The position numbers and the translations under genes were made by a program. The notes under the pieces are model-generated. The model saw only the letters and a list, made by a program, of their open reading frames with translations. It did not search any database and had not been told where the DNA came from. From the NCBI GenBank assembly GCA_009840385.1, contig VXNX01000013.1, forward strand, positions 572,222-636,221: DNA of 64,000 bases, in the 5' to 3' direction. The DNA is from Candidatus Dadabacteria bacterium (GTDB taxonomy: Bacteria > Desulfobacterota_D > UBA1144 > Nemesobacterales > Nemesobacteraceae). Of this stretch, positions 48,851 through 51,780 are shown one piece after another (position 1 is the first letter of the stretch; each line of letters begins with the position of its first letter).

Positions 48851-50272
48851 TTGAAAAAGGCAGAGGATGTTGCGCACGGCAACCTGGCTACTGAAACCGA
48901 CCAACTGAATCAAGAAATAGAGTTTGACTGGGACGCAGTTCTCGACTGCGTCAAAAAGGATCTTTACTTTCCCCCCTCATGGCTGTTTTCCATAAAAGTC
49001 GCGAAGATCGAAGGCAGGCTGGTAACGCTTGAGGCTAAGAGTCACTTCCAGGCCCTGTGGGTGAAAAACCACTATCTTCAGTTGATAAACGAAACCGCCC
49101 AGAGCCTCTACGGAGTGGGCCGCTTCCAAGTAACGATAGATGAGCGCGAGAGGAATTCCGTGGCGGACGGAGCGAAAAAAAACAACGCCGCGGAATTCAA
49201 GGCGGGGGACCGGTCGCACGATCCCCAGTCCGTAAGCTTTTTCAGTTCAACCAACACGTTTGAGAACTTCGTCGTCGGACCGAGCAACCAGTTCGCCCAC
49301 GCGGCATCCTACGCAATCGCCGAGAACCCCGGCATGGCGTACAACCCGCTTTTCATACACAGCGGCGTGGGGCTCGGGAAAACCCACCTCCTCCACTCAA
49401 TAGGGAATCACATACTCCAAAAATACGGAAACCGCCTGAACACCCTCTGCATCTCGGCCGAGCACTTCACAAACGGAGTGGTGCAGAGCATAAAAACGGG
49501 TTCCATGGACAAGTTCAGAAACCTCTACAGGTTTAACTGCGACGTTCTGCTCATAGACGACATCCAGTTTATCGCCGGAAAGGACAGCACCCAAGAGGAG
49601 TTCTTCCACACCTTTAACTCCCTCTACACCGCAAAAAAGCAGATAGTAATAACCAGCGACAAGCCTCCGAGCGTGATGAAGAACTTCGAGGAGCGCCTCA
49701 AGTCAAGATTCGAGTGGGGGCTCACGGCGGACATACAGCCGCCAGAAGTGGAAACCAAGATAGCCATCATAGAGAAAAAGGCCGAGGAGGAACAGATAGA
49801 GATCCCCGGCGACGTGGCCTCATTCATAGCGCAGAACGTCCTCTCCAATATAAGGGAGCTCGAAGGCTCGGTGAACAAGCTGTTCGCCTACTCGAGAATG
49901 TTCAGAGAGAGAATAACTCTCGAGCTGGCAAAGCAACTCCTCAAGCATCTGGTGAGAAAAGAGACCCCGAAGATTATAACCATAGAGTTCATTCAGAAAG
50001 AGGTGGGATCGTTTTTCGATCTTTCGGTAAAGGACCTGAAATCCAATCAGAAGCAGAAAAAAGTCTCTGAACCCAGGCAGATAGCGATGTTCCTCTCAAG
50101 AAAGTACACCTCGTCCTCGTTCCCCGAGATCGGGAGCAAGTTCGGCGGAAAGAACCATTCCACCGTGGTTCATGCGGTAAAGAACATCGAAAAGAAAACC
50201 GACAAGGATCCGAACGTATCAAACGCCGTCGCGGCGATCTCCGCAACCCTAGAGAAGTTCATCACATCCTGA
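48851..50272 (+). CDS. dnaA: Chromosomal replication initiator DnaA
   Basis: A 473-residue DnaA. Domain I is W-D-A-V-L-D-C-V-K-K-D-L-Y-F-P-P-S-W. Domain II is a short linker. Domain III is AAA+ with N-P-L-F-I-H-S-G-V-G-L-G-K-T-H-L-L-H (Walker A) and L-L-I-D-D-I-Q-F-I-A-G-K (Walker B). Domain IV ends with the DNA-binding R-Q-I-A-M-F-L-S-R-K-Y-T-S-S-S-F-P-E-I-G and G-G-K-N-H-S-T-V-V-H-A signature. The start is chosen as TTG 48851 because GGAG lies eight bases upstream. A GTG at 48821 would add ten residues. Confidence 0.97.
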   Translation: MKKAEDVAHGNLATETDQLNQEIEFDWDAVLDCVKKDLYFPPSWLFSIKVAKIEGRLVTLEAKSHFQALWVKNHYLQLINETAQSLYGVGRFQVTIDERERNSVADGAKKNNAAEFKAGDRSHDPQSVSFFSSTNTFENFVVGPSNQFAHAASYAIAENPGMAYNPLFIHSGVGLGKTHLLHSIGNHILQKYGNRLNTLCISAEHFTNGVVQSIKTGSMDKFRNLYRFNCDVLLIDDIQFIAGKDSTQEEFFHTFNSLYTAKKQIVITSDKPPSVMKNFEERLKSRFEWGLTADIQPPEVETKIAIIEKKAEEEQIEIPGDVASFIAQNVLSNIRELEGSVNKLFAYSRMFRERITLELAKQLLKHLVRKETPKIITIEFIQKEVGSFFDLSVKDLKSNQKQKKVSEPRQIAMFLSRKYTSSSFPEIGSKFGGKNHSTVVHAVKNIEKKTDKDPNVSNAVAAISATLEKFITS

Positions 50273-50619
50273 GGCCAGACCGAGGCACAGCCTGTTAGAA
50301 AAGAACCGAAAAAGCTGTGCAGTGATTTTTGTTTCCCGCCAGCACGGCCACACCAAGAAAAAATGTGTGACTTTCTGTTAGTAAAAAGAAAAGCTGTGAA
50401 CACGCCGTCGCCGGAAAAAGAAAAGGGTTTTAGGCAATTTCACACATTTCACCCTTTTCACAGCAACTACTATTACTGCTACTGAGAAAAGTTTTTAAAT
50501 ACAGATAGAAGTAACAGTAGAAAGAACAGCAATGTTTGCGGATTATGGTTTTGTAGCCAAAAAATGGTTATTATCCCTATGATAGACATGTTTTCACACG
50601 ACAGGAGGTTTTTCCTCAG
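50273..50619. other. oriC: Probable replication origin (oriC) between dnaA and dnaN
   Basis: This 347-base non-coding stretch lies in the classical origin position. It holds several near-consensus DnaA boxes: TTTTCACAG 50455-50463, TTTCACACA 50438-50446, TTTTCACAC 50591-50599. An exact 10-base inverted pair is at 50361-50370 and 50440-50449, and AAGCTGTG occurs at 50312-50319 and 50391-50398. Three bases after the box at 50455 there is a DnaA-trio-like tract. The next 100 bases are AT-rich, as expected for the unwinding element. Perfect TTATCCACA boxes are absent, so the box set is unusual. Confidence 0.75.
50467..50484. other. DnaA-trio-like tract (origin unwinding element)
   Basis: Six trinucleotides in a row, CTA CTA TTA CTG CTA CTG, whose complement reads TAG/TAA/CAG. 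Four of six fit the DnaA-trio consensus 3'-[G/A]A[T/A]-5'. It directly follows the box TTTTCACAG. A partial inverted copy lies at 50510-50520 (AGTAACAGTAG, 10 of 11 complementary to 50467-50477). Confidence 0.6.
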
Positions 50620-51780
50620 ATGATGTTTAAAATCAAGGTCGGGGATTTTTCAAGGAAGCTCGGAATGATTCAGGGAGTTGTTGAGAAAAGAACGACCATG
50701 CCTATTCTCTCCCATGTCCTTATGAGTTCTACGGACAAAGGCCTTCTGTTGGAAGCCACCGATCTTGAAAACACCGCTACCGTTTTTTGCGACGCTCAGA
50801 CGGAGGGAGAATTCAAAATAGCGGTTCCCGCCGGAATACTTTCCGACCTCGTAAGGGAAATGCGCGAAGAAGAGGAAATTTCGGTTACCGCCGCCGAGAA
50901 CAACTGGATCGAGGTGGTAACAAGCTCCGGTTCCTTTAAGATAGCCGGGCTTGCGGCCGATGATTTCCCGAGAATCCCTGAGATTTCCTCCGAGGATCTC
51001 TTCCAGGTTTCTTCTGAGGCGCTTGAGGAAATGATATCCAAGACGGTTTTCTCCGTATCGGACGATGAGATGAGAAGGAGTCTCTCCGGGGTGTTTTTTG
51101 AAAAAAGGGGAGAGCAAACCCTGAGGCTGGTCGCTACCGACGGCCACAGGCTAAGCTTCGTCGACCGAAAAATAGAGGGTCTTAATCTCTCAAAAGACAT
51201 ACTGGTTCCCAAAAAGGCGGTCATGGAGATAAGAAGGCTTCTTCGTCTCTCAAAAGAGGTCAGAATCGGTAGCAGCGGCAATTTCTTCGTTTTTGAACTC
51301 GGGGACGAAAACTTGGTTTTCATCTCAAGGGTGATCGATGCCGAATTTCCAGACTACATGCAGGTAGTTCCGGTCTCGACGAAAAACACGGTCAAGGTTG
51401 ACGCTGCCAGCCTACTGCTTGCGCTTCGGAGGGTTTCCCTCTTTTCCGCCGACAACGTAAGGGGCGGAGGCAGGTTTGTCGAGATGGCTTTTGGGGAAGG
51501 AAGCATGCTCCTTGGCGCCTATCTTAACACCGGCGAGGGAAGGGAGAGTATCCCGATCGAGTATTCTGGGGAAGAGGTCAGGCTGGGTTTTAACTTCACC
51601 TACTTTCAGGATGTTCTCGACGCGGTCGGGTCGCCCGAGGTCATAATCGGTTTTTCCGGCCACAAAAACCCGGTGTACGTGGTTCCCTGCGAGGAGGGAG
51701 AGAAGCAGGACGGCTACGTGAACGTCATAATGCCAATGGAGCTTGACGCCAGAGCGGCGGAAGGGCAGGCAAGGGGATAA
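50620..51780 (+). CDS. dnaN: DNA polymerase III sliding clamp (beta subunit)
   Basis: A 386-residue clamp with the three-fold repeat of the beta family. N-terminal V-E-K-R-T-T-M-P-I-L-S-H-V-L then A-T-D-L-E-N are the domain I marks. V-A-T-D-G-H-R-L-S-F lies in domain II, and the C-terminus has Y-V-V-P-C before a short acidic-basic tail. The usual C-terminal M-P-M-R-L is replaced by I-M-P-M-E-L-D-A-R-A-A-E with extra residues. AGGAGG lies 11 bases before the ATG; a second ATG follows immediately. It is the second gene of the dnaA-dnaN origin pair. Confidence 0.97.
   Translation: MMFKIKVGDFSRKLGMIQGVVEKRTTMPILSHVLMSSTDKGLLLEATDLENTATVFCDAQTEGEFKIAVPAGILSDLVREMREEEEISVTAAENNWIEVVTSSGSFKIAGLAADDFPRIPEISSEDLFQVSSEALEEMISKTVFSVSDDEMRRSLSGVFFEKRGEQTLRLVATDGHRLSFVDRKIEGLNLSKDILVPKKAVMEIRRLLRLSKEVRIGSSGNFFVFELGDENLVFISRVIDAEFPDYMQVVPVSTKNTVKVDAASLLLALRRVSLFSADNVRGGGRFVEMAFGEGSMLLGAYLNTGEGRESIPIEYSGEEVRLGFNFTYFQDVLDAVGSPEVIIGFSGHKNPVYVVPCEEGEKQDGYVNVIMPMELDARAAEGQARG

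Follow-up and report, generated by a model that had tools for sequence, protein, structure and literature searches.

The 347-bp gap between dnaA and dnaN in a 1.66-Mb draft genome (14 contigs) of a Candidatus Dadabacteria bacterium is very likely the chromosomal replication origin, oriC, built on a DnaA-box/DnaA-trio basal unwinding system (BUS) whose box recognition has probably been retuned in the genus. Within the window, by which we mean the whole 64,000-nucleotide stretch of DNA that was analysed, this gap spans exactly positions 50273–50619, the interval that a preliminary description of the sequence had proposed as oriC. Throughout the genus, a canonical box–spacer–trio anatomy is combined with DnaA boxes that have T at position 5 (T5 boxes) and with a DnaA reading head specific to the genus. 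The BUS anatomy and T5 boxes, the latter from Epsilonproteobacteria, are already known; departures from the norm are the boxes of this genus together with a DnaA residue, and a second trio-like tract of opposed orientation. We compared 58 Dadabacterial genomes, of which 14, our own included, belong to the same genus; the relatives are mostly draft genomes, and the closest named one is a Candidatus Dadabacteria bin with a DnaA identity of 80%. One same-genus genome, G026, consists of a single contig (1,590,246 bp), and its entire chromosome was read. Nitrospirota contributed no usable dnaA–dnaN origins to the cross-phylum comparison, and a search of the literature turned up no experimental study of a Dadabacterial origin.

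Position, conservation and uniqueness of the origin region

The identities of both flanking genes are secure by domain content. The genes and the core elements between them are as follows.

48887–50272, plus strand: dnaA (TIGR00362, 503 bits; Pfam Bac_DnaA and Bac_DnaA_C; homologous in relatives, start codon approximate)
50436–50444, plus strand: DnaA box 1, AATTTCACA, with its TTTCAC core at 50438–50443 (0.67 parsimony changes per core column, 14 genomes)
50445–50453, plus strand: DnaA box 2, CATTTCACC (0.33 changes per core column)
50454–50462, plus strand: DnaA box 3, CTTTTCACA, the closest to the trios (TTTTCACA at 50455–50462 with 0 changes in 14 genomes)
50463–50466, plus strand: 4-nt spacer GCAA, separating box 3 from the trios (genus core alignment)
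50467–50484, minus strand as putative bound strand: six DnaA-trios, reading CTACTATTACTGCTACTG on the plus strand (shuffle p ≤ 0.002)
50485–50505, no strand assigned: AT-rich unwinding stretch, 81% A+T by base composition
50620–51780, plus strand: dnaN (beta clamp; three Pfam DNA_pol3_beta domains)

Origin status rests on position, conservation and uniqueness. The cumulative GC skew of G026 has its minimum at 1107521, inside the dnaA–dnaN gap and 45 bp past the final codon of DnaA (the dnaA match runs to 1107476), and peaks at 204063; the box array of this genome begins at 1107655 and dnaN starts approximately 400 bp beyond the end of the dnaA match. Local GC skew in the window switches sign at about 50000–50500. 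The 1.59-Mb chromosome of G026 has only one triple TTTCAC array and only one 5-trio run, both at the origin locus. Among the 14 genus genomes, parsimony changes per column rise from 0.00 in box 3, 0.33 in the box 2 core and 0.67 in the box 1 core to 1.28 for the trios, 2.76 for the AT-rich stretch and 3.56 for the right flank; the box array and trios rank among the most conserved non-coding columns. Of the checks named in the preliminary description, the GC-skew minimum thus falls in this gap in a same-genus chromosome, and the boxes and trios are kept in close relatives; its assignment of the gap as oriC is backed by both. That replication begins elsewhere and that the motifs are merely regulatory sites of dnaA and dnaN is hardly credible, given that the G026 skew minimum lies inside the gap and that the box–trio array is unique in that chromosome. 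No RNA element was found in the gap (the only Rfam matches in the window are two tRNAs, both outside it), nor was a transcription terminator, and promoter matches are weak.

The core is an array of three contiguous 9-bp boxes arranged head-to-tail (50436–50462), a unit that the earlier description had missed and that is kept in the genus. Tandem boxes of a BUS share one orientation and lie ≤3 bp apart, as do these three contiguous 9-mers, and the array adjoins a stretch of 81% A+T, so that a DnaA-box cluster and an AT-rich region stand side by side as expected of an oriC. The published BUS rule asks for a box (≤2 mismatches, species-specific consensus allowed) 0–16 bp from ≥3 NAN trios (PMC8287927); here box 3 ends at 50462 and the run CTA CTA TTA CTG CTA CTG, six trios in all, starts 4 nt past it at 50467. 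The reading of this run as DnaA-trios followed by an AT-rich stretch, made from the letters alone, is therefore upheld by the shuffle test, the BUS rules and the base composition. TACTAC is enriched over the genus gaps (28 observed vs 1.9 expected), and an equivalent trio tract lies behind the boxes in all Dadabacterial families. Since the box–trio array is unique in G026 and kept in 14 genus members, it is well supported that the trio tract itself and the box/trio unwinding mechanism are ordinary. From work on B. subtilis and H. pylori we infer DnaA binding, filament formation and unwinding: domain IV of DnaA would bind the three head-to-tail T5 boxes (WTTTCAC core, 9-bp spacing), an ATP-DnaA filament would grow from them across the 4-nt spacer onto the minus-strand trios, and the filament would then open the AT-rich stretch.

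DnaA boxes and the DnaA reading head of the genus

A scan of the window gap found no TTATCCACA and no exact TTWTNCACA, which agrees with the earlier statement that consensus box words are absent. The gap instead holds TTTTCACA twice (50455–50462 and 50591–50598; 0.02 expected from window density), TTTCACACA once (50438–50446) and TTTCAC four times (0.25 expected); over the genus gaps TTTCAC was observed 42 times vs 6 expected. Such words had been described on both strands; they are real, but exact TTTTCACA and TTTCACACA occur on the plus strand only, and the minus strand has a single weak box relative, GTGTTCACA, at 50395–50403. TTATCCACA is found in 0/14 genus gaps, and TCCACA is absent altogether from 12/14. 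The array usually takes the form (A/G)ATTTCACT GATTTCACC (C/T)TTTTCACA in the genus relatives, five of which (L082, L083, L089, L091, L092) carry an exact TTTTTCACA; CTTTTCACA has one mismatch to TTTTTCACA and two to TTATTCACA. All three window boxes have TTCAC at positions 4–8, which characterises the T5 type, and in the standard register (CAC at 6–8) they are TTWTTCACA-like with T at position 5. The proposal that DnaA may recognise a shifted box was right in that the boxes form a non-consensus class and a base-contacting residue of DnaA differs from the norm, but the register is normal: we rejected a register shift because CAC remains at positions 6–8 and the change is T5.

Further box-like sites lie outside the core array.

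50293–50301, minus strand: degenerate reverse box-like site TTTCTAACA, TTTTTTGACA-like in most relatives (CTGT unchanged throughout the genus alignment)
50316–50324, minus strand: degenerate reverse box-like site CACTGCACA, TTCTTGCACAG in relatives (genus alignment)
50366–50374, minus strand: degenerate reverse box-like site AAAGTCACA, ATATTCACA in most relatives (genus alignment)
50591–50598, plus strand: isolated TTTTCACA near dnaN, not conserved in the genus alignment

The three reverse-strand sites (50293–50374) end in ACA, lie left of the core array and are kept in some form genus-wide; judged from their sequences, they are probably low-affinity DnaA sites. TGCACA is present in 11/14 genus gaps. 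The isolated TTTTCACAC at 50591 was rejected as a functional box because it is not kept in relatives.

In domain IV of DnaA, all genus members have the motif GGKNHSTVVHA vs GGRDHTTVLHA in E. coli, with two substitutions at the following codons (E. coli numbering).

50153–50155, plus strand: Asn codon at the Asp433 position of E. coli DnaA (Asn in 14/14 genus DnaAs)
50168–50170, plus strand: Val438 codon (Val in 14/14 distinct genus DnaAs)

A survey of 188 distinct DnaA C-termini (14 from the genus, 36 from other Dadabacteria and 138 others) found Asn at position 433 in 14/14 genus members and Asp in 36/36 other Dadabacteria; the 138 non-Dadabacterial proteins have Asp (101), His (36) or Asn (1), so that Asn433 occurs in only 1/174 DnaAs outside the genus. 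That one, L251, comes from a Desulfobacterota relative; its DnaA reads GGRNHTTVIYA, and in its origin TTATCAACA and then AATTTCACA stand ahead of the trios. Residue 438 is Val in all genus members and in 3/138 non-Dadabacterial DnaAs. The His433 form (GGKHHTTV), seen in Acidobacteriota loci such as L057 and L060, marks a further lineage in which the DnaA residue that reads the box has changed; the boxes of that lineage could serve for comparison.

Both the box class and the DnaA reading head thus differ from the norm in this genus. As T5 boxes without TTATCCACA accompany an Asn433/Val438 DnaA, box recognition has probably been retuned, and an altered box preference of the genus DnaA is, from sequence, probable but unproven. 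We did not accept that Asn433 gave rise to T5. The box base that D433 and L438 are reported to contact is the one at position 7 (PMC8235120); the genus boxes retain A there, so Asn433 alone does not explain T5; moreover, a sister genus (L095) combines T5 boxes with Asp433, which suggests that the box change probably preceded the residue change and that the two arose separately. The same sister genus also speaks for a competing account, to which we give somewhat less than even weight, namely that the boxes drifted neutrally within the ordinary tolerance of DnaA (TTWTNCACA) and that Asn433 marks the lineage but leaves specificity unchanged. At position 5, E. coli DnaA accepts all four bases (PMC5043019), and L251, the only non-genus Asn433 protein, has its two box words adjoining its trios; drift is, however, harder to reconcile with the lack of TTATCCACA from 14/14 and of any TCCACA from 12/14 genus gaps, with an invariant TTTTCACA, and with the fixation of Asn433 and Val438 at base-contacting positions, of which 433 is otherwise very conserved. 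Scattered copies of TTATCCACA (14) and TTWTCCACA (52) are still present in the G026 chromosome, and we therefore do not claim that the DnaA of the genus has stopped binding them. Origin-finding programs keyed to TTATCCACA can fail to detect boxes of the type used by this genus.

The opposed trio-like tract and helicase loading

Between the AT-rich stretch and dnaN lie four further elements.

50506–50520, plus strand as putative bound strand: opposed trio-like tract TAG AAG TAA CAG TAG (shuffle p about 0.002–0.012)
50537–50545, minus strand: weakly box-like site TAATCCGCA, replaced by TAATCCACA or TAATTCACA in part of the relatives, a candidate right-hand anchor (sequence and alignment; inconsistently kept)
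50543–50575, plus strand: conserved block TTATGGTTTTGT..AAAA.TGGTTATTATC between the opposed tract and dnaN (1.18 changes per column)
50603–50608, plus strand: dnaN ribosome-binding site AGGAGG (from the sequence)

The partial inverted trio copy first noticed at 50510–50520 is real and slightly longer (50506–50520), reading CTACTGTTACTTCTA on the minus strand. In most genus members it is found 21–31 nt past the forward trios, and with 1.93 changes per column it varies less than the right flank (3.56); its middle-A columns changed 4 times vs 15 and 10 times in the other two phases (permutation p = 0.04). Tracts passing the shuffle test 15–40 nt from the forward trios were found in 25/45 Dadabacterial gaps (genus 7/13, other families of the order 13/23, f8/f5 5/9), 0/29 Firmicute gaps and 5/26 gaps of other phyla (2/6 Desulfobacterota, 2/14 Acidobacteriota, 1/6 Omnitrophota), counts that come from related genomes and are thus not independent trials. 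Opposed trios were accordingly rejected as a general bacterial feature. The preliminary description had suggested two opposed loading tracts and considered them uncommon; the tract is indeed kept in most relatives and uncommon elsewhere, but loading is a reading of sequence conservation. The tract is poor in two members of the comparison set (L094 and L091). Isolated opposed trio-like tracts were also observed outside Dadabacteria, 17–26 nt past the forward trios, in L303 and L320 (Acidobacteriota) and L231 and L235 (Desulfobacterota).

In the remaining families of the order, the corresponding position is approximately 20–33 nt from the forward trios and falls inside the dnaN ribosome-binding site, which is mostly AGGAG-TAG and sometimes has CAG or TAA instead. 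TAG directly follows the dnaN AGGAG in 16/21 other-order gaps that have AGGAG, vs 2/119 at other ORFs in three other-order genomes; the three triplet columns change 3, 1 and 3 times vs 3–7 times in the surrounding columns, the middle A being the most constrained. A ribosome-binding site with an immediate TAG (AGGAGTAG) is seen in most other-family genomes, e.g. L098, L104 and L112.

The 58 Dadabacterial genomes were searched for helicase loaders. DnaD/DnaB_2 (PF07261) matched in 0/58, with the B. subtilis and L. lactis controls alone giving matches, and no DciA was detected, with controls as expected; a DnaD-like or DciA loader was rejected on these grounds. Most of the genomes encode an ATPase of approximately 260–290 aa that matches the IstB/DnaC model. 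The G026 protein (C1:202509–203351; L141:2509–3351) is most like PDB chains named DnaC (3ecc and 3ec2) and shows sub-threshold similarity to DnaI/DnaC models. This DnaC/DnaI-like AAA+ protein has a cysteine-rich N-terminus and is likely the helicase loader.

A second, opposed DnaA loading tract is, from its sequence, possible. It would add to the origin model a second DnaA oligomer on the plus strand at 50506–50520, by which each strand would get its own DnaA filament and a docking site for the helicase and its DnaC-type loader, and two helicases would be placed in opposite directions without DnaD. We consider this addition rather doubtful. The contrast between Dadabacterial and Firmicute gaps in the shuffle test points towards it, as do the excess of TAG after the dnaN AGGAG with its constrained middle A, the position of the genus tract well away from the ribosome-binding site with least variation in its middle-A columns, and the DnaC/DnaI-like ATPase in a group of 58 genomes with no match to DnaD/DnaB_2 or DciA. 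Against it, the genus has only a weak right-hand anchor box, and no DnaA-box-like site was seen beyond the opposed tract in the other Dadabacterial families, so that a filament would have no obvious nucleation from the right; the counts are not independent, the three-phase test reached only p = 0.04, L094 and L091 are without a good tract, and the signal in the order partly overlaps the ribosome-binding site.

That overlap with AGGAG also suits the alternative that the tract is a by-product, be it a purine-rich leader, an old dnaN ribosome-binding site or a dnaN expression element, with no role in replication, for which we see roughly an even chance. NAN triplets form easily in A/G-rich DNA, and the adjoining block at 50543–50575 is conserved and may be regulatory for dnaN; it is possibly the dnaN promoter, although no good sigma-70 match and no good −35 box were found in it. 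A by-product fits less well with Firmicutes, which share the same kind of ribosome-binding sites yet are without the tract, with the rarity of TAG after AGGAG at other genes, and with the genus tract, whose distance from the trios is similar even though at least some 80 nt separate it from the ribosome-binding site downstream. Within the block at 50543–50575 there is also a TTATT, which in E. coli is known as a word of single-strand DnaA sites.

Returning to the opposed-tract reading, its fullest form holds that two opposed trio tracts on either side of one unwinding stretch let DnaA itself mark both strands, on which a DnaC-type loader would place the helicases independently of DnaD, and that one genus additionally retuned its DnaA and T5 boxes; taken as a whole we judge this unlikely. 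How a second helicase is loaded on the opposite strand is stated to be unsolved (PMC10721633; PMC10201434), above all in bacteria without DnaD, and the opposed trio tract may be one possible answer to second-strand marking without that protein. The conserved inverted tract offers a concrete, mutable sequence for testing second-helicase loading.

Comparison with known replication origins

The Dadabacterial locus resembles the B. subtilis BUS (oriC/incC, boxes 6/7 and trios) in its dnaA–dnaN location, same-orientation tandem boxes, short spacer, 5'-CTA-3' trios running away from the boxes and subsequent AT-rich stretch. It differs in that its boxes number three, are spaced 9 bp apart and have T at position 5, in that a trio-like tract of opposed orientation follows on the far side, and in that no DnaD was detected. 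With Epsilonproteobacterial origins (H. pylori, Arcobacter, Wolinella), whose DnaA boxes have a TTCAC core (PMC5043019), it shares this core with T at box position 5, a serine at the E. coli T435 position and, as in H. pylori, a trio tract near the last box. The lineage is, however, unrelated, Asn replaces Asp433 although the 433–434 dyad is described there as highly conserved, and no sign of a bipartite origin was seen here in a non-systematic search.

Other Dadabacterial families of the order have the same gene order, box–spacer–trio order and kind of trios and a similar distance to the opposed tract. Unlike the genus, they have mostly consensus TTATCCACA-type boxes (TGTGGA 69 observed vs 2.4 expected; ≥1 TTATCCACA in most gaps) at 8-bp spacing as in TTATCCACAAATCCACA, Asp433, a shorter gap, and the opposed tract within the dnaN ribosome-binding site. 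In B. subtilis, DnaD at the DRE has been proposed to mark the second strand (PMC10201434). The opposed tract would be like the Firmicute DRE as a proposed signal by which a second helicase is loaded onto the partner of the trio-bound strand. DnaD reads the DRE, which is complementary to the trios; in the present lineage, where no DnaD homologue was detected, the candidate signal is a separate inverted trio tract.
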